A stretch of DNA of 36,348 nucleotides, from assembly GCA_903911145.1 (NCBI GenBank), contig CAIWCD010000027.1, forward strand, positions 1-36,348. The letters are read 5' to 3'. This document shows, in pieces, positions 20,921-35,423 of this stretch. The notes beneath the pieces were generated by a model. It was given only the letters and a program-made list of their open reading frames with translations, ran no database searches and had not been told where the DNA came from. This DNA is from an uncultured delta proteobacterium (GTDB lineage: Bacteria; Myxococcota; Myxococcia; Myxococcales; 40CM-4-68-19). How positions within the stretch are numbered: the first letter of the stretch is position 1; the number at the start of each line of letters is the position of its first letter. Both the position numbers and the translations under genes were made by a program.

Positions 20921-21562
20921 TCAAACGGCCCCGGTTAGCATTTTGAGATCCGCCTCGGCGATCGAGAGAGCAACTCGCAGCTTGGCTCGCTGAGCATCCA
21001 ACTTCGCCACTTTCGGGCTCGGTAGCCCACGGGCAAGGACTTTCTTGATCTTCCCGAGGCGATCGCGGCACGCAGTCCAGTCAGCGAAGGTGCGCTCGAT
21101 CTGCCGCAAGAGCCATCCGCGATAGGTCATGTCGTCGTCTCGATTTAGGTCCAGCAGGTCGATTGTCCAGGTCCCCGCAATCGTCCGGCTGCGAACCTCT
21201 ACTTGGTGATAGCCCAAGTGATGCGACATCTTGTGTTGGCACGGGGCCGGAACGTAGACACCTCGTTTCAATTGCGTTGGTGTCGGCCAGAAGTCCCGCT
21301 TGCGGCTGTTGCAGGCATTGCAGCAGTAATAGAGGTTCGAGTAGTCCGCCTGCAGCTCTGGGAACCTTTTCTGCGGCTTATAGTGATCCACGCCGAACTC
21401 GTTCGGCGTTTTCGGACCGTCCGGCATCCTGCAGTAGACACACTGCCTGCCAAACTCGTCCCGCAAGAAGGGCTTGTACTTGCGGTAATCCGCGAACACA
21501 GGCGGACGTTGCTTGCGCACGTGCCTACTCCGCGGATACTTGAACGGGATCCGGCTCGACAT
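20921..21562 (-). CDS. HNH endonuclease
   Basis: This 213-aa protein has a typical HNH/zinc module. CVYC (C41, C44) and CNAC (C81, C84) form the zinc pairs. FGVDHYKPQKRFPEL supplies the DH (D59, H60) with the general-base histidine, and NLYYCCNACNSRK gives the Asn and Cys positions. The remaining C-terminal region is helical and basic (GKIKKVLARGLPSPKVAKLD), probably for DNA contact. The ATG start overlaps the stop of the 152-aa gene by one base (TGATG), and it is the last gene of a three-gene operon with a TIGR04255-like protein. HNH enzymes in such settings are often nuclease effectors of phage-defence systems. PtuB-like (TIGR02646) membership is possible but not certain. Confidence 0.88.
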   Translation of the reverse strand: MSSRIPFKYPRSRHVRKQRPPVFADYRKYKPFLRDEFGRQCVYCRMPDGPKTPNEFGVDHYKPQKRFPELQADYSNLYYCCNACNSRKRDFWPTPTQLKRGVYVPAPCQHKMSHHLGYHQVEVRSRTIAGTWTIDLLDLNRDDDMTYRGWLLRQIERTFADWTACRDRLGKIKKVLARGLPSPKVAKLDAQRAKLRVALSIAEADLKMLTGAV

Positions 21563-22020
21563 CAGAGATCAGCGAGTAGCTCGTCGGTCTCGCTAAGGAG
21601 ATCGTGAGCCGTCTTGGAACGCTCCGCCGCGGCGCTCAGCCGCTCGTAGTCGTCGGCGGTTACGCGGGGGAAATAGGCGGCCGCCCTTTCCGTGGCGATC
21701 AGCAGCCGAGCTGCTTCTTCGCGGGACAGCTGGCCCCGCACGTACTCCCGCGCAAGTAATTCCTGCCGCGCGAAAACCGCCCGCTCCGCGTCATCGACGC
21801 CACGCCCGATCGGCGATTTCGATTGGGTGGGTTCCTCAAAGATAGGCGCACCTGTCGTGTTCGCTGTCGCTCCCAGAATGTTGGGGGCGACCACGACAAG
21901 CGTCGCGGCCCAACTCGAGATCGCGTCTGCCGGCCGATAGGCTCGCACAAACGGCTTCAGCGTCTCTTCGCCTTGAGGGACCCGATATGGGGGCGTGCTC
22001 GTAACAGTGTTTGCCGGCAC
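21562..22020 (-). CDS. Unknown 152-aa protein between TIGR04255-like and HNH genes
   Basis: I recognise no family. The start is GTG at 22020, two bases after the stop of the upstream gene, and its stop overlaps the HNH gene start. The first about 75 residues are proline/alanine/threonine-rich (TPPYRVPQGEETLKPF, WAATLVVVAPNILGATANTT). The second half is strongly helical and charged (DDAERAVFARQELLAREYVR, LSREEAARLLIATERAAAYF, ERSKTAHDLLSETDELLADL). There is no signal peptide, metal motif or Walker motif. The tight spacing on both sides says that it is translated with its neighbours and probably acts with them, as an adaptor, antitoxin-like or regulatory partner (inference). Confidence 0.75.
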   Translation of the reverse strand: MPANTVTSTPPYRVPQGEETLKPFVRAYRPADAISSWAATLVVVAPNILGATANTTGAPIFEEPTQSKSPIGRGVDDAERAVFARQELLAREYVRGQLSREEAARLLIATERAAAYFPRVTADDYERLSAAAERSKTAHDLLSETDELLADL

Positions 22021-22022
22021 GA

Positions 22023-22760
22023 TCAGTCCTTCCTTCCATCAGGAGATTTACTCATGTGTTCCCGAGCCCTGTCCCCGATCGCCCACTCGAACAGTCTATA
22101 TGTCTGCTCGTGAAAGTGCGACAACATGTCCCGGAGTTGCCCGTTCTCGACATCCTCCGCGAAGAAATCTGAGTCGAGAAAGTATTTTTTTTGATCGACT
22201 GTCACGTTTGGGTCAAGCCCGTGTTGAAACATGAAGCCACTGCCCTTCCCGCACGTCCCCCGTATCTGCTGCCAGCAGAGGGTCGGGCGGCCGAATATCC
22301 CCTGCAGCAGTGGCGCACCAAGTGACTCGTTGATCCAACCGTCCAGTTGCGACGGTCCCACCGGGAGCGCGTTGATGTACCTGAGCCCAACACGAGTGTA
22401 GCGCGGCGTATCGAGGAGGTGATCGATCTGCTTCACGATCCAATAGAGCTTCCCGCTGAACTCGGCGAAGTTCACGTACTGGTTGGTGTCGAGCGAGATG
22501 CTTCCAGACTTCAAACCGACGCGCCACCGCCTATCCAACGACGAGAATGTGTGTCCTGTGGCCTTCTCCGCTTCGGAGCTGCCGATCATCGGAACGACGG
22601 TCACAATCTTCTCGTAGTGCGGATATTCCTTTCGCAGAGCCTTCTGAAAGGCGACTGGCTGCTCCGTCTCCAGCTCCAGGAGCGTCGGGAACCGGATCTC
22701 GCAGATAGCTTGTGCGATCAGGTTGGCGTTGTACTCTTTTTGTACACGCTCCGGGAGCAC
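22023..22760 (-). CDS. TIGR04255 family protein
   Basis: I placed the start at GTG 22760 (AGGA site eight bases upstream; product begins VLPERVQKEYNANLIAQAIC). A longer frame from ATG 22868 adds 36 residues unlike the family. The 245-aa protein has the TIGR04255 layout: an N-terminal NLIAQAICEIRF strand, then FQKALRKEYPHYEKI, TFSSLDRRWRVGLKSGSISL, TNQYVNFAEFSGKLYW and the conserved RVGLRYINALPV. The C-terminal part ends in a helix followed by a charged tail. The family is sporadically distributed in bacteria and its function is unknown to me. It heads a three-gene minus-strand operon with the 152-aa protein and HNH nuclease, and is divergent from the type I RM operon. Confidence 0.75.
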   Translation of the reverse strand: MLPERVQKEYNANLIAQAICEIRFPTLLELETEQPVAFQKALRKEYPHYEKIVTVVPMIGSSEAEKATGHTFSSLDRRWRVGLKSGSISLDTNQYVNFAEFSGKLYWIVKQIDHLLDTPRYTRVGLRYINALPVGPSQLDGWINESLGAPLLQGIFGRPTLCWQQIRGTCGKGSGFMFQHGLDPNVTVDQKKYFLDSDFFAEDVENGQLRDMLSHFHEQTYRLFEWAIGDRAREHMSKSPDGRKD

Positions 22761-23147
22761 CAAGTCCTGTCCGCGGTCGGCCAACGTGCCCTCCCATCGA
22801 TCGTATCGCAGCGCCGCAAGGCAGCATGCCGTCGGCGAACGCGTGTCGTCGCACAATCGAGGCCCCAACGCCAGACCGCCGCAAGTGGCGGTGTTCTTTT
22901 GCTATCCATTTCGAGCGCTGGCCCGCACTCCGCCAGCAGCCACAGACTGGCAGGCGAGTCTCTCGACCATTCGTACGACCAGCGGGTTCCCGTTGTCCGC
23001 GGGACCCCGCGCGCAACGCCACTGCCGTTGAGCCGAGTCGGCCGAAGAGAACCCGTTCAGCTGCTGTCTCCCGCGCGTGCTAACAGTCGCGCACGACGGT
23101 GAAGAGGCGCGCTGATCGAGCGTCTCCGAAGAGCAAGGGGCGCGACG
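22761..23147. promoter_or_regulatory. 387-bp divergent intergenic region
   Basis: It separates the minus-strand TIGR04255 operon from the plus-strand hsdM operon, so it must carry both promoters. I see a hairpin with a T-rich tail at 22875-22900 but no confident -35/-10 pair. HsdM carries its own HTH, so an autoregulatory operator could be here. No convincing gene is present. Confidence 0.45.
22875..22900 (+). terminator. Terminator-like hairpin in the divergent region
   Basis: ACCGCC (22875-22880), loop GCAAGT and GGCGGT (22887-22892) form a six-base-pair GC-rich stem followed by GTTCTTTT. The tail orientation suits plus-strand transcription, although no plus-strand gene lies just upstream. 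It could end a short RNA, act as a leader or be accidental. Confidence 0.35.
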
Positions 23148-24914
23148 ATGGCGTGGTCTGCCGAATGGATAAAGGAAGCTCGGAAGTCGGCGGGCCTCTC
23201 CCAATCTGAACTCGCAGCGAAGCTCGGCGCTGCCCAAGCGCAGGTCAGCCAGTGGGAGACGGGCAAGGTTTCTCCCTCTGCCGACGCGATCGCGAAGCTG
23301 CAGCAGCTCCTCGGCAGCGCGGCCGCCGACACGCCGCCCGCGCCTGCGCCCACAGCATCGGGCCGCGCAAAGAAGCAAGCCGCTCGTCCCTCTGCCGACG
23401 CCGCCGCGGACATCGCGCTCCCCGCCGACGGCAAGCTCACCGTCGACGCCCTCGAGCGGTACCTCTGGTCCGCCGCCGACATCCTCCGCGGCTCGATCGA
23501 CTCGTCCGACTACAAAGGCTTCATCTTCGGCCTCCTCTTCCTCAAGCGCCTCTCCGACCGCTTCGACGAGGAGTGCGCCGCGCTCACCGCCGCGGGCGAC
23601 GATCCCGAGGATCGCGACAATCACCAGTTCTTCGTTCCCACGCGCGCGCGCTGGTCAGAGCTGCAGCGGGTCGCGACCGGCATCGGCGAGGCGCTGAACA
23701 AAGCCTGCTCCGCGCTCGAGCACGACAACGCCTCGCTCGATGGCGTCCTCGCCGGGATCGACTTCAACGACGAGCGCAAACTCGGCGACGCGCGCAATCG
23801 CGACGTCGTGCTCGGCCGCCTCGTGCAGCACTTCTCGAAGGTCGGCCTGAAGAACGAGAACCTCGCCGAGCCCGACATGCTCGGGCGCGCCTACGAGTAT
23901 CTGATCGAGAAGTTCGCCGACGACGCAGGCAAGAAGGGAGGCGAGTTCTACACGCCGAAGAAGGTCGTCGAGCTGATCGTCGAACTCCTCGCGCCGACCG
24001 AGAAGATGCGCATCTGCGACCCGACCTGCGGCTCGGGCGGAATGCTCATCGAGTGCGCGCACTACCTCGAGCGGCACGGCAAGAACGCGAAGAACCTCTC
24101 GCTGTTCGGCCAGGAGAAGAACCTCGGGACGTGGGCGATTTGCAAAATGAACATGCTGCTCCACGGGCTGCCGGACGCACGCATCGAGAAGGGCGACACG
24201 ATCCGCGATCCGAAGCTTCGCGAGGGCGGCGAGCTGATGCTGTTCGACCGCGTGATCGCGAACCCGCCGTTCAGCCTCGACGAGTGGGGGCGAGAGGTCG
24301 CGGAGAACGATCCGCACGGGCGCTTCCGCTTCGGCGTGCCGCCCAAGGGCAAGGGCGATCTCGCGTTCGTGCAGCACATGATCGCGACGACGAACATGAA
24401 GGGAATGGTCGGCGTCGTGATGCCGCACGGCGTGCTGTTCCGCGGCGGTGCCGAGGGTGAGATTCGCGCGGGGATGCTGCAGGAGGATCTCGTCGAGGCG
24501 GTGATCGGCCTACCGCCGAACTTGTTCTACGGCACTGGCATTCCAGCGGCGATTCTCGTCTTCAACAAAGCGAAGCGCGCTGACCGTAAGGGCATGGTGC
24601 TGTTCATCGAAGCGTCTCGAGACTTTCGCGAAGGCAGCGCGCAGAACTATCTGCGCGCTGAGGACGTCACGAAGATCGCCGGTGTGTTCCATGCATTCAA
24701 GGACGTCGAGAAGTACGCGCGCGTTGTGGGCGTCGCCGAGGTCGAGAAGAATGAAGGGAATCTGAATATCAGCCGCTACGTCGAGACCGCCGACGCTGTC
24801 GAGAAGATCGACGTAGTGGGTGCCATCGCGAAGCTGCGCGAACTGGAGGCCTCGCGCGGCGCGGCCGAGGCGCGGATGAACGGGTTCCTGAAGGAGCTTG
24901 GGTATGACGCCTGA
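23148..24914 (+). CDS. hsdM: Type I restriction-modification N6-adenine methyltransferase HsdM with N-terminal HTH
   Basis: The 588-aa protein is longer than usual HsdM because residues 1-55 are an XRE/Cro helix-turn-helix (WIKEARKSAGLSQSELAAKL, then QVSQWETGKVSPSADAIAKL). An Ala/Pro linker follows (about 60-90), then the HsdM N-terminal helical domain (LERYLWSAADILRGSIDSS ... IFGLLFLKRLSDRFDEE). The methyltransferase domain has motif I DPTCGSGGML at about 291-300, the EFYTPKKVVELI motif and catalytic NPPF at about 372-375. It forms the M2S1 methyltransferase with HsdS and methylates adenine. The hsdS start overlaps its 3' end by 11 bases. The fused HTH suggests that the protein can repress or regulate its own operon (inference). 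The ATG has an AAGGGG site upstream. Confidence 0.96.
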   Translation: MAWSAEWIKEARKSAGLSQSELAAKLGAAQAQVSQWETGKVSPSADAIAKLQQLLGSAAADTPPAPAPTASGRAKKQAARPSADAAADIALPADGKLTVDALERYLWSAADILRGSIDSSDYKGFIFGLLFLKRLSDRFDEECAALTAAGDDPEDRDNHQFFVPTRARWSELQRVATGIGEALNKACSALEHDNASLDGVLAGIDFNDERKLGDARNRDVVLGRLVQHFSKVGLKNENLAEPDMLGRAYEYLIEKFADDAGKKGGEFYTPKKVVELIVELLAPTEKMRICDPTCGSGGMLIECAHYLERHGKNAKNLSLFGQEKNLGTWAICKMNMLLHGLPDARIEKGDTIRDPKLREGGELMLFDRVIANPPFSLDEWGREVAENDPHGRFRFGVPPKGKGDLAFVQHMIATTNMKGMVGVVMPHGVLFRGGAEGEIRAGMLQEDLVEAVIGLPPNLFYGTGIPAAILVFNKAKRADRKGMVLFIEASRDFREGSAQNYLRAEDVTKIAGVFHAFKDVEKYARVVGVAEVEKNEGNLNISRYVETADAVEKIDVVGAIAKLRELEASRGAAEARMNGFLKELGYDA

Positions 24915-26174
24915 CGAGTGGCAATCGAAGCCGCTCGGGCGTCTGATCGCAGCTATTGCTGCAGGCGTGAGCGTGAACTCCGAGAGCCGACCGCGCGGCC
25001 TCGGGGAATTCGGTGTCCTCAAGACGAGCGCCGTGACGTACGGCGTGTTTCGACCAGAGCAAAACAAGGTTGTGTTGCCGACGGAGATTGATCGCCTCAA
25101 GGAATCGCCGGTTGCGGGATCTGTCTTGGTCAGCCGCATGAACACCGAGGCACTGGTGGGGGCCGCGGCATATGTGCCCGAGAACTTCGCGGACCTGTTT
25201 CTTCCTGATCGGATCTGGCAGTGCCGTCCCGATCCCGCCGTGGCTGACGGCCGCTGGCTCCATCAACTCCTGAGCAGCCCGCCAATGCGGCGACGGCTAT
25301 CTGAGATTGCTGGCGGTACGAGCGGTTCGATGAAAAACATCGCGCAGTCTCGGTTCCTTGCTCTATCGATCTCCGCGCCGCCGCTCCCCGAGCAGCGCAA
25401 AATCGCCACCATCCTCTCGTCGGTGGACGACGCCATCGAGGCCACGCAGGCGATCATCGACCAGCTCCAGGTCGTGAAGAAGGCGATGATGGCCGAGCTG
25501 CTGACGCGCGGCCTGCCGGGGCGGCACACGCGGTTCAAGCAGACGGAGATCGGGAATGTGCCGGAGGAGTGGGCGCTCACGTCGCTCGGTGCGCTGACAC
25601 AGCACAGCGCCTTTGGACCAAGATTCCCGTCCACTCTGTACGGCGACATTGGCAACGTCGGAAGCGTCCGAACGACGGACATCTCGGACGATTGGGAGAT
25701 CGATTACACAACGGTGCCGAGAGCCACACTCGATCCGAGCGTCGTCGCACCGCACCGGCTTGTGGATGGCGATCTTCTCGTGTCTCGGTCGGGAACCTGC
25801 GGGGTGACGGTGGTCTTTAGGGCGCAGGCTGTCGATATGGTTCCTGCCGCGTTTCTAATTCGATTCAGGCTCCAGAACACGGTTGACCCGGAGTTTGTTC
25901 GCCTCGCAATGATGGAGCCATCCGCGCAAGCCCGAGTGCAATCACTGGCGGCGGGAGGGGTGCAGAAGAACCTGTCGGGTACCAACCTATCCACGCTAGT
26001 TCTTCCATTGCCTCCCTTGGCTGAACAGATCGAGATCGTAGCCGCCGTGGCGATCATAGACGCGCGTCTCCGGGCTGAGCGTCGGCTCCATAAGCAACAG
26101 AAGGAGGCCAAGTCCGCTCTAATGTCCGCCCTCCTCTCGGGCGAGGTCCGCGTGAAGGTCGACGAGGCAGCGGC

Positions 26175-26178
<4 letters not shown>
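24904..26178 (+). CDS. hsdS: Type I restriction-modification specificity subunit HsdS
   Basis: I chose ATG 24904 because AAGGAG lies seven bases upstream, inside the end of hsdM; a TTG at 24898 is less likely. The 424-aa protein has two target-recognition domains. Each is followed by a conserved helical region: APPLPEQRKIATILSSVDDA with IDQLQVVKKAMMAELLTRG in the centre, and LPPLAEQIEIVAAVAIIDAR with KQQKEAKSALMSALLSGEV at the end. The second TRD begins after GNVPEEWALTSLG. It directs both methylation and cleavage to a bipartite DNA target, which cannot be read from sequence alone. Its stop overlaps the hsdR GTG start (GTGA). The TRDs appear less biased in codon use than the conserved helices, as expected for exchanged segments (visual impression). 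Confidence 0.95.
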
Positions 26179-29200
<3,022 letters not shown>

Positions 29201-29204
<4 letters not shown>

Positions 29205-29932
29205 CCGCTGCTGCGCACGTCGTGCAGTGGGGGCGGACGCCGATCCCGTTCGCGATCAGGCGCAGCGGACGGAAGAAGACTGTCTCGATCGCGGTCGAGC
29301 CCGGCGGCGACGTTGTCGTCACCGCGCCGAAGGCGACTGGCGTCGAGCGCCTGCACCGACTCGTCCGCGAGAAGGCACGGTGGATCGTCCAGCACCGCCG
29401 ATTGACCGAGGATCTGGAACCTGCGCCCGCTCGTGAGTTCATCAGCGGCGAGACGTTTCTCTATCGGGGGCGACAGCACCGACTCGTGGTTACGAGCCAT
29501 GCGGGTGCTCCCGAGGTGAAGCTCGAGCATGGCCGGTTCGTCGTGCGACTGCCGAGATCAGCGCGCGCTGCAGCCCGACCTGTCCTCGTCAACGCCGCGA
29601 TGGTGAGCTGGTATCGACGCCACGCGGAGAGGATGCTCCCGGCGCAGGTGGCCGCTTGCGCGCGCAGCCTCGGACTCAGCTCCGTGCCGGTGCAGATCGT
29701 GGCGCAGCAGAAGCGGTGGGCGAGCTGCACTTCAGCGGGATGCGTTCGTATGAACTGGCGGCTCGTGCAGGCTCCGCCGCGGCTCGTGGAGTACGTGGTG
29801 ATGCACGAGCTGACGCATCTGCGCATCCCGAGCCACGGAGAAGCCTTCTGGCGGGCGCTTGGCCGCGCTCTGCCGGGCTATGAGATGCGACGGGATGAGC
29901 TGCGCCGGCTGGGGCCACGGCTCACTTGGTAG
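29201..29932 (+). CDS. YgjP/DUF45-family zinc metallopeptidase in the RM operon
   Basis: The 243-aa protein matches the YgjP-like DUF45/M48-like family. It begins with the beta-rich part (IPFAIRRSGRKKTVSIAVEP, TAPKATGVERLHRLVREKARWI). The signature KRWASCTSAGCVRMNWRLVQAPP follows, then catalytic VVMHELTHLRIPSHGEAFW, with zinc histidines in HELTH (from about residue 201) and a third histidine in the PSHGEAFW segment. It starts ATGA-overlapped with the hsdR stop. Members of this family are known to sit in type I RM operons; the proposed role is processing or regulation of the system, but the substrate is unknown. It has no signal peptide, so it is cytoplasmic. Confidence 0.92.
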
Positions 29933-32803: not shown

Positions 32804-34411
32804 CTACCGTGCGAGTCGGCGCACGTTCCCCAGGTCGCTGAGCGTCGCAGTTATTCGCTGGAACTCGAAAGCGGGCTTCTTTGTTGTCGCCTCGAATCCG
32901 ACAACGACGCCGCAGTCAACCAATAGGAACGGAACCTTCAGTTCCTGCGAATATTCGCGCACCTGATCCAAGTCTGGGCCAGCCCAAGACGGCGCGGCTC
33001 CCCGTATTCGTTGCTTTGCTTCGATTAGAAGCGCTGGCCTGTCCTCCTGATAGATGACGTAGTCCGCGATCCCACCGCTCATCATCCGGACTTGTTGCTT
33101 GAGTCTGTAGCCAGCCTTGACATGCAAACCGGCCAACCGCAGTAGGGGGCCGATGACGTTTTGTTCGACATCACCCTCCAGTCGAAATGCGCCGGTTGGG
33201 ATCGTTCGCCATTGCGCAAGGGTACTCCGGCTGGGGTTGGGAAGGCCAACCCGGCCCCACACTTTTGTATCGAGAATCGAGGGGCGTTTCTTTGAGTACA
33301 CATCCGAAGCTGGGCGTGCTCCGCGCAGTAGCCGAGCGGCCGCCTTGGGGGTTATGGGCTTGCCACTACGTCCGCGAAGATTCTGTGGCCCGCCAGCGGC
33401 CTTTAACTCCGCGAACGAGATTGGAGCGATTCGCGTTGGCGGCTGCAAATCACACCACCACTGATGTTGATTGACACCGGTGAGCGCATTCACCGCGATG
33501 TCGTTGGCCCAATAGGCACCACTGAGCGCTCTTGAAACGAACTGGATGCTCTTGGAGGGCGCAACGAAGTAGATGAATACAAGGTCTCCTGCCTCAACCC
33601 AAGGGCTGCAAGTCCAACGATAGGATTGTCCTTCCTCCCACGCTTTCGCCACGACCTCGTCGCTGTCGAACGATTTCTCGTCCCCAAGTAGGAGCCACGC
33701 GTTTTGAGCAATCGAGCCAGTCCCGGCCCCTTCGGGATTGAAGCCACTCAAGGTGAGCACTTGCTCATCGTAGAACGTGAACCCGTCCTTCCACCCGCCG
33801 GTGGCACTCCCCGCCTTGTCCTCCTCGTCCGGGCAGTAGATCGTAAGGCGGTTCTTCTTGATCACGACCTTGACTGGGACCTTCGAGAGTTCCGCCCAGA
33901 GGAAGTAACTCCCCGGCGTCTTCGTGCTCGCGGAGAAGCCCCGCTTCGCGGCCTCGCCCGGCAGATCGAAACTTGCTGCCGTCTCGGTCTTGGAGACTCT
34001 TGCGGACGTTCTAGCCTTCGCCCTCATGCTCTTCGTGTTCACGCGCTTGCTCCCTCGCCGCTTCGGTATTGAGGAATACTGGCGACGCCCGCCAAGACTC
34101 GTCTCGTCCCCTGCACTCTTCTCGGTGACCTCCTCCGGTTCTCCGTAGGGAGGCGGGTTGAAGATGTGCTCCATCTGAACCGTGTATCCAGTTGGGCTGT
34201 CGTCGAGGTACTTGATCTCGAAGATTGGAGGCCAAGACGTGTCGTCCGCCGAGCCACATTCGGCGCAGAGTGCTCGGTGGCTCCCCTCGGTTGTTCGTGC
34301 TTTGGGAATGCACTGTTTGCAGATCAAGCGGTCGCATGTGCCGTGGCATGAAACCGCATTGTTAGCGCTCACCTTGAGGGCACAGATCGCGCATCGTTTG
34401 AGGGTCCGCAT
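32804..34411 (-). CDS. Candidate modification-dependent restriction enzyme: PHD/RING-like finger, PUA/EVE-like region, PD-(D/E)xK nuclease
   Basis: The start is ATG 34411, sharing a base with the upstream stop (TGATG); GTG 34414 would add one residue. The 535-aa protein has three parts. Residues 5-52 hold eight cysteines spaced like a PHD/RING cross-brace: C-x2-C-x11-C-x3-C-x4-C-x2-C-x14-C-x2-C. A linker with basic low-complexity sequence follows. Around residues 260-350, SYRWTCSPWVEAGDLVFIYF ... IQFVSRALSGAYW ... WWCDLQPP and PISFAELKAAGG resemble a PUA/EVE-type reader domain. The C-terminus has an HSDR_N-like nuclease: EGDVEQNVIGPLLRLAG, then D450 (GGIADYVIY) and E464-A-K466 (LLIEAKQ). I infer a type IV restriction enzyme recognising modified DNA. 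The nuclease call is firm; the reader call is tentative. Confidence 0.7.
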   Translation of the reverse strand: MRTLKRCAICALKVSANNAVSCHGTCDRLICKQCIPKARTTEGSHRALCAECGSADDTSWPPIFEIKYLDDSPTGYTVQMEHIFNPPPYGEPEEVTEKSAGDETSLGGRRQYSSIPKRRGSKRVNTKSMRAKARTSARVSKTETAASFDLPGEAAKRGFSASTKTPGSYFLWAELSKVPVKVVIKKNRLTIYCPDEEDKAGSATGGWKDGFTFYDEQVLTLSGFNPEGAGTGSIAQNAWLLLGDEKSFDSDEVVAKAWEEGQSYRWTCSPWVEAGDLVFIYFVAPSKSIQFVSRALSGAYWANDIAVNALTGVNQHQWWCDLQPPTRIAPISFAELKAAGGPQNLRGRSGKPITPKAAARLLRGARPASDVYSKKRPSILDTKVWGRVGLPNPSRSTLAQWRTIPTGAFRLEGDVEQNVIGPLLRLAGLHVKAGYRLKQQVRMMSGGIADYVIYQEDRPALLIEAKQRIRGAAPSWAGPDLDQVREYSQELKVPFLLVDCGVVVGFEATTKKPAFEFQRITATLSDLGNVRRLAR

Positions 34412-35004
34412 CACGCGATCTCTTCGCCGGAATAGAAGGCGTCAAAAGCGGAGGACTCGACCACGAACGTGCGCCAGCCAGCTTCGCGCAGCGTACCGAC
34501 GGCGGCGGAAAAGGCTCCCTCCGCACTCACCGCGATGGCATCGCCGATGATCACGAGTTGGACTCGCAATGATTTCAGCGGCGATGTTGGACGGGCAGCG
34601 ATCAACCGCATCTTGCGACGCGCGCTAGCCATCCCGCGCGCAATCGCATCAACGATCGCTTCGTCACCCTCCATGCAACATACAACGGGATCGCCACTGA
34701 GAAACGGATGGTGAAAGGTCTCTCCATCCGCGCCGAGGGCTTCGTCGAGTCGAATCCGAACAACGCCAACGCGATCGCGATCACGGATCGACAACAATGA
34801 GGTAACGACGCGATCGGTGAGAATGGCGGACTTCTCTGCTGAGTCTTCTCCGAAACACGTAAACGCCACGCGGGCGAGCGCCTTCCCTGCGCTGGGCAGC
34901 ACCGGCAACGCCGCAACGTCTTCCAGACCGAAAACGCGCATCGGTGCCCGCTTCGCTTGCGAAGATTGCGCGCCAGCCGGGATCGTCTGTGTCTTCGCTG
35001 CCAT
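34411..35004 (-). CDS. Unknown 197-aa protein coupled to the candidate restriction enzyme
   Basis: I chose ATG 35004 because GGAGGA lies directly upstream; the longer frame from 35118 has no such site. I do not recognise a family. The N-terminal 25 residues are disordered (AAKTQTIPAGAQSSQAKRAP). The rest alternates strands and helices: FTCFGEDSAEKSAILTDRVV, DRVGVVRIRLDEAL, DPVVCCMEGDEAIVDAIARG, RVQLVIIGDAIAVSAEG and GWRTFVVESSAFDAFYSGEE. There is no membrane segment or catalytic motif. Its stop overlaps the start of the nuclease gene, so it is made together with it. It may be a partner or control subunit (inference). Confidence 0.75.
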   Translation of the reverse strand: MAAKTQTIPAGAQSSQAKRAPMRVFGLEDVAALPVLPSAGKALARVAFTCFGEDSAEKSAILTDRVVTSLLSIRDRDRVGVVRIRLDEALGADGETFHHPFLSGDPVVCCMEGDEAIVDAIARGMASARRKMRLIAARPTSPLKSLRVQLVIIGDAIAVSAEGAFSAAVGTLREAGWRTFVVESSAFDAFYSGEEIA

Positions 35005-35097
35005 TGTTCCTCCGTCCAGAGGCAACAGTAGTGTCCCCCTCCGACACGCACCGATAACGGAGCGACGCGAGATCAACATCGCCGCTCTCGCTAACAC

Positions 35098-35110
35098 GAC
35101 AGACCCTGTC
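35098..35110. promoter_or_regulatory. Candidate operator GACAG-ACC-CTGTC
   Basis: A perfect 5-bp inverted repeat with a 3-bp spacer lies in the divergent region, 38 bp upstream of the XRE gene start and 94 bp upstream of the 197-aa gene start. It is a candidate binding site for the XRE regulator. Confidence 0.4.
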
Positions 35111-35147
35111 ATATTCAACAGCCCGCGTCCACGCGACGGTCGCTCCC

Positions 35148-35423
35148 GTGCGAAGCGATCGTGTGCGGGACCTGCTGCGCCATCTGGGCGCGAACGTTTG
35201 CCGCACGCGGCTTCGCCGAGGCTTGACGCAGGCTGAACTCGCCGAGCTGGTTTCGATGGAGCCGCGCTCGCTTCAGCGTGTCGAATCCGGGGCTACGTGT
35301 TCGATCAAGACGGTTGCGGCGATCGCGGATGCGCTCGAGGTTCCTGTCGCGAGACTCTTCTTCGAGTCTCAAAAGGCACCCCGCGCGCGCCGTCCGGGTC
35401 GGCCGAAGAAGCGGAGCGTTTGA
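35148..35423 (+). CDS. XRE-family transcriptional regulator
   Basis: The 91-aa protein starts at GTG 35148 (alternatives within the next few codons are possible; no strong ribosome site). The helix-turn-helix is clear: LGANVCRTRLRRGLTQAELA, then ELVSMEPRSLQRVESGATCS and IKTVAAIADALEVPVARLFF, the Cro/C1 pattern with a conserved LTQAELA and ADALEV. A basic C-terminal tail (APRARRPGRPKKRSV) follows, containing an AT-hook-like RPGRPKK. It is divergent from the 197-aa/nuclease operon with the GACAG/CTGTC repeat in between, and is followed by the gene at the right edge. It probably controls one or both operons, as controller proteins do in restriction systems (inference). Confidence 0.88.
   Translation: MRSDRVRDLLRHLGANVCRTRLRRGLTQAELAELVSMEPRSLQRVESGATCSIKTVAAIADALEVPVARLFFESQKAPRARRPGRPKKRSV

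Follow-up and report, generated by a model that had tools for sequence, protein, structure and literature searches.

A predicted modification-dependent restriction endonuclease carrying an eight-cysteine cluster, an EVE-like domain and an HsdR_N-like nuclease in an uncultured delta proteobacterium

The window analysed here is an entire contig of 36,348 nucleotides (CAIWCD010000027.1) from an uncultured delta proteobacterium assigned by GTDB to the Myxococcales. On its reverse strand lies a gene whose frame runs open from an ATG at 34411 through 535 codons, with no internal stops, to a stop codon at 32804-32806. This ATG and the stop codon of the upstream gene overlap as TGATG. The gene, its parts and its closest neighbors are as follows.

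32804..34411, minus strand: whole gene, a 535-aa protein ordered as putative zinc cluster, linker, EVE-like domain and HsdR_N-like domain (open frame, ATG at 34411)
34256..34393, minus strand: eight-cysteine cluster, residues 7-52, a putative two-zinc cross-brace (treble-clef type) finger (cysteine spacing, sub-threshold Pfam zinc-finger matches)
33737..34231, minus strand: linker, residues 61-225, with a basic stretch (about 110-143) and possibly a beta-rich segment (about 148-215) (inspection of the sequence)
33302..33724, minus strand: EVE-like (PUA superfamily) putative modified-base reader, residues 230-370 (profiles, AF2 model, fold search)
32852..33199, minus strand: HsdR_N-like PD-(D/E)xK nuclease domain, residues 405-520 (HSDR_N profiles, tblastn, conservation with L178, L186 and L190)
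33014..33064, minus strand: catalytic motif D450 ... E464-A-K466 (sequence, conservation)
32951-32965, minus strand: Q483-x3-Y487, downstream of the catalytic motif (sequence, conservation)
34411..35004, minus strand: overlapping upstream gene, 197 aa, putative partner (TGATG overlap, homologues beside nucleases)
35148..35423, plus strand: divergent XRE-type helix-turn-helix regulator (HTH_31, 2.9e-10), which may control the operon

Taken alone, the C-terminal part matches the Pfam families HSDR_N_2 (E 0.0016) and HSDR_N (0.0047), both under the curated cut-offs, and tblastn against plasmids returns mainly HsdR N-termini (E 1e-3). It shares with the N-terminal domain of HsdR a PD-(D/E)xK signature with D, ExK and Q-x3-Y; an E-x3-E, P-L-L, D, E-x-K, Q and Y are common to all four proteins of the core family described below. 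These matches, and a motif kept unchanged in three distant relatives, identify residues 405-520 as a PD-(D/E)xK nuclease domain of HsdR_N type with intact catalytic residues, in agreement with the original prediction, whose account of the frame, the pairwise spacing of eight cysteines, D450 and E464-x-K466 proved exact. The protein is not itself a type I HsdR: its 535 aa contain no SWI2/SNF2 motor or helicase domain and it has no evident dependence on HsdM or HsdS, while a fused reader stands in for the specificity subunit. A combined alignment of EVE and nuclease parts (A9) was dropped for modeling because its EVE-only rows misaligned across the nuclease, and a single-sequence structure model of the whole protein (pLDDT 34.5) is not reliable.

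The middle of the protein required more indirect evidence. Residues 230-370 are unrecognised by Pfam, and the window protein gives no match to the canonical EVE model PF01878 up to E 10; among the four core proteins, three match that model weakly (best 0.0039), below its curated cut-off. A tblastn lead came from a relative genome, in the form of an MmcQ/YjbR-EVE-type protein (L007; its MmcQ/YjbR part was named from its sequence and from PMC7641849). That protein led in turn to five plasmid proteins that carry an HNH endonuclease annotation and have an EVE-like N-terminal part. A profile of these six sequences, with the window protein left out, scores the window protein at 15.7 bits versus 7.8 for the best of 20,000 shuffles, and hhalign gives the same pairing a probability of 85%. 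An AF2 model of residues 230-370 has a pLDDT of 75.9 and a pTM of 0.73, from a shallow alignment of eight sequences whose other rows are EVE sequences and so help set the fold. Foldseek places the EVE structure 2gbs first for this model (9.6e-6), followed by the restriction enzyme VcaM4I (6yex, 1.4e-4) and the EVE protein 1zce; VIA-align gives Z scores of 11.1 for 2gbs, 10.3 for THYN1 with 5mC DNA and 9.3 for VcaM4I (118 residues). Since ASCH and YTH structures score just behind the EVE structures in VIA-align, the assignment to the PUA superfamily is firm, and placing the domain in the EVE subtype depends on sequence and fold taken together. On both, residues 230-370 are a diverged EVE domain, and the suggestion of a PUA/EVE-type fold in this region is thereby borne out by leave-one-out profiles, the AF2 model and the fold search. 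The chromosome also carries an EVE gene (G000:C13), which encodes an ordinary EVE protein separate from the nuclease locus.

What such a domain would read bears directly on function. EVE domains have been implicated in recognition of RNA as well as DNA (PMC7641849), and the matches of our model to YTH and ASCH structures are matches to RNA-binding folds; the domain could then read modified RNA, for example a tRNA modification, in an RNA-targeting or abortive-infection nuclease. We consider this quite unlikely, given that the nuclease is nearest to HsdR N-domains, which cut DNA, that a DNA-restriction enzyme and a complex with 5mC DNA are among the solved EVE structures it matches, and that homologues of the core adjoin BREX and restriction-modification genes.

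Those homologues are few. A GTDB scan with a three-sequence alignment yielded eight loci. One of them, a protein from an Armatimonadota MAG (L178), matches residues 190-499, which include both the EVE and the nuclease parts; from it a plasmid protein of Deinococcus proteolyticus was reached, and then a second Deinococcus plasmid protein. The core relatives thus number three, from two other phyla only. They (WP_013615767.1, WP_249395091.1 and the L178 protein) share with the window protein an EVE-like plus HsdR_N core, 25-29% identical and with the same catalytic residues; they differ in about 170-220 unlike N-terminal residues that form no finger. A leave-one-out profile of the three finds the window protein at residues 237-500 with 44.1 bits (E 1.9e-11), versus 6.1 bits for the best of 20,000 shuffles, and hhalign gives 98.1%. 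Once the window protein is included, the first half of the profile retrieves canonical EVE proteins and the second half HsdR N-domains, each from many genomes, and the best PDB matches are the EVE protein 2gbs (E 0.034) and, for the nuclease half, McrC (0.89). Scans of IMG/VR with the core profiles returned nothing.

On the plasmid of Deinococcus sp. QL22 the EVE-HsdR_N gene (L190:4995-6542) is divergent from BREX pglZ/brxL; BREX and a type IV enzyme can provide complementary protection (PMC8565348). The QL22 gene is followed by two genes for GTPases, one of them IIGP-like, and by a DarT-family gene. The other Deinococcus relative lies near an MmeI-like methyltransferase. The QL22 protein (L190:4995-6539) matches phrog_37753 (function unknown) with E 1e-62, so a family annotation of EVE plus HsdR_N-type nuclease would probably be apt for PHROG 37753.

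Other EVE arrangements were seen in passing. Two loci in related genomes (L204:916-1896 and L212:952-1887) have the reverse order, an apparent PD-(D/E)xK-like N-terminal part (by eye) followed by an EVE-like domain that carries an RRNMQG or RGRLQG motif; L204 has no Pfam match. At two more (L201:1201-2286, which was tested, and L203:1051-2322), EVE is fused to a NOV_C (Protein NO VEIN C-terminal) domain.

Bell, Wolf and Koonin (2020, PMC7641849) have classed fusions of EVE to PD(D/E)XK nucleases, often with extra domains, as putative modification-dependent (type IV) restriction endonucleases. The window protein resembles that class in its fast-evolving EVE domain, its PD-(D/E)xK nuclease and the defense contexts of its core, so the core itself is not new; it differs in an N-terminal eight-cysteine finger and basic linker, no such finger being described in the consulted part of that account. 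As for the claimed novelty of the type IV architecture, it therefore holds for the N-terminal addition and not for the core: the new element is an N-terminal zinc finger (putative as to metal and fold) atop a known predicted class.

The cysteines of this finger lie at positions 7, 10, 22, 26, 31, 34, 49 and 52, numbered from the ATG at 34411, in the pattern C-x2-C-x11-C-x3-C-x4-C-x2-C-x14-C-x2-C. Random placement of the protein's 12 cysteines puts eight inside 46 residues in only 10 of 200,000 trials; none of 20,000 shuffles reproduced the whole pattern. As in the cross-brace fingers (RING, PHD, FYVE, B-box), there are eight candidate ligands in alternating pairs at compatible spacing, the paired arrangement seen in RING, FYVE and B-box; here they come without a significant profile match and without the PHD histidine, and fold and zinc are putative. 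Pfam matches are all sub-threshold (zf-RING_5 0.063, Siva 0.063, B-box 0.46, C1_2 0.93, ZZ 6.5), and no PHD model appears among matches up to E 10, a range in which HMMER filters lose most weak matches. The finger had been likened to a PHD finger with its usual histidine replaced by cysteine. That identification is not established: the C4HC3 ligand set, with histidine as the fifth ligand, is absent since all eight candidate ligands are cysteine, and PHD with a His-to-Cys change is just one option among several. Cross-brace folds of the RING, FYVE or PHD kind would be compatible with the spacing, which is at least as near to an all-cysteine FYVE-type cross-brace. We infer that the cluster would bind zinc.

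Residues 1-66 have no sequence relatives that we could find, and the finger alone gives only chance matches across 195 genomes. Its best resemblance, a half-motif in long membrane proteins (L229, L235, L241 and L242), was not taken as homology. The eight-cysteine pattern searched as DNA in IMG/VR returned essentially low-complexity, cysteine-rich frames. The three core relatives have no CxxC anywhere. Of the two outcomes that were to count against the original prediction, an unrelated fold in the middle region did not materialize and absence of the cysteine cluster from homologues did, at least in these three; because they lack it, we treat the finger as something added in this lineage and not as a feature that the family conserves. 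The linker (residues 61-225) has no family match, and the resemblance of the middle region to nucleolin RRM (E 0.65) was discarded as chance.

For the protein as a whole, no full-length homologue was found among the sampled genomes, plasmids, phages and viral contigs (a GTDB exact-peptide scan, IMG/VR, plasmids, phages, and sets of 99 and 195 related genomes), nor any match in PDB, NCBIfam, PADLOC or PHROGs; weak whole-protein matches (L002-L005) were dismissed as low-complexity or unrelated. A skeptic might see in this, and in the long basic linker, a relic that is decayed or chimeric, with a piece of zinc finger joined by chance to a nuclease and no function left. Third-position G+C could be read the same way: it is 0.69 in the nuclease gene versus 0.83-0.89 in fliG, ntrC and hsdR, a difference that is also consistent with recent foreign origin. 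Decay is nonetheless very improbable for a gene that is fully open over 535 codons and has lost no catalytic residue, whose eight cysteines all fall into regularly spaced pairs, and whose ATG shares bases with the stop codon of the gene upstream, for which homologues exist.

That upstream gene, which has no family match for its 197-aa product, completes the operon; no dedicated cognate methyltransferase is encoded there. The nearest methyltransferase found is the HsdM of a type I restriction-modification operon about 8 kb off, on the other strand, with a resolvase between that operon and the nuclease gene.

23148-24914, plus strand: hsdM
24898-26178, plus strand: hsdS
26175-29204, plus strand: hsdR

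Several smaller features accompany this operon. Its HsdM carries an N-terminal XRE-type helix-turn-helix, and a YgjP-like metallopeptidase gene overlaps hsdR, the stretch with the type I operon extending over 23148-29932 (plus strand). A 213-aa protein with an HNH endonuclease domain (20921-21562, minus strand) adjoins the operon, with two ORFs (21562-22020 and 22023-22868) upstream of it on the same strand.

Members of the upstream-gene family were located in the window (34411-35118, minus strand) and at three other loci (L247:4579-5965, L248:4441-5001 and L253:325-909). In one genome (G045, L247) the homologue precedes a protein with a GmrSD_N domain; in another (G111, L248) it is divergent from, and adjoins, an HNH protein with a weak DCD match; in the third (G138, L253) it sits at a contig end near a ribosomal protein L28-like gene, in a housekeeping context. 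GmrSD-like and DCD-HNH nucleases are both types linked to modified DNA, and the family is possibly a shared accessory of modification-dependent nucleases. Because of the housekeeping example, the association of partner and nuclease is suggestive and not exclusive.

The same facts might be taken to mean that the nuclease is an effector or helper, cutting when the type I system close by, or the upstream partner, gives the command, with the EVE domain serving only to target it and no modified base acting as the trigger. The gene does overlap its upstream neighbor and lie about 4 kb from hsdM/S/R, and partner homologues next to GmrSD-like and DCD-HNH nucleases suggest an accessory that different nucleases share. 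Yet the type I operon runs on the opposite strand, beyond the resolvase, the core homologues have no evident adjacent copy of the partner gene, and one partner homologue lies among housekeeping genes; we hold such dependence to be distinctly improbable. A more elaborate proposal makes the finger a second recognition module, so that cutting would need a modified base together with a further DNA or protein feature, and at the same time makes the upstream gene one of an accessory family common to EVE-HsdR_N, GmrSD-like and DCD-HNH nucleases. Both parts together we think unlikely.

Type IV restriction is the most likely predicted role. Because the two defining domains were tested and are present, the catalytic motif is invariant in all four core proteins, and the neighborhood is one of defense genes, we predict that the protein is probably a modification-dependent (type IV-like) restriction endonuclease. 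The gene, the domain identities, the catalytic motif, the finger-less core in other phyla and the defense neighborhood were computed; from them we infer that the protein would bind zinc, recognise a particular base and flip it, cleave, and counter phages. The closest structural guide to how these might fit together is VcaM4I, an EVE-HNH enzyme that flips 5mC or 5hmC into a pocket walled by Y130 and W82, with Q128 acting as a wedge, and whose variants were assayed for restriction of T4gt phage (PMC7897488). VcaM4I (PDB 6yex), like the window protein as predicted here, unites an EVE base-flipping reader and a nuclease in one protein; it differs in placing EVE first and HNH last, where the window protein has a PD-(D/E)xK nuclease and a putative zinc cluster. 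Because identity between the two EVE domains is only about 17-18%, base-contacting residues cannot be mapped confidently from one to the other.

In the mechanism that we propose, the EVE-like domain (230-370) would flip a modified base, probably a modified cytosine, from incoming phage or plasmid DNA into its pocket; the HsdR_N-like domain (405-520, with D450, E464, K466 and Q483) would then cut nearby in a metal-dependent reaction, probably as a dimer. The finger and basic linker would most likely be a lineage-specific addition that contacts DNA or protein, or restrains the nuclease.

In the literature examined, EVE-PD(D/E)XK enzymes are predicted and the structurally characterised EVE restriction enzyme is of the EVE-HNH type. 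The core family described here (the window protein, the Armatimonadota MAG protein and the two Deinococcus plasmid proteins) offers concrete candidates for restriction of modified phage DNA by an EVE domain joined to an HsdR-type nuclease. If active, such enzymes would be an addition to the tools for mapping modified bases, and the finger, together with a partner gene that may be shared, prompts the question of how nucleases of this kind are controlled.
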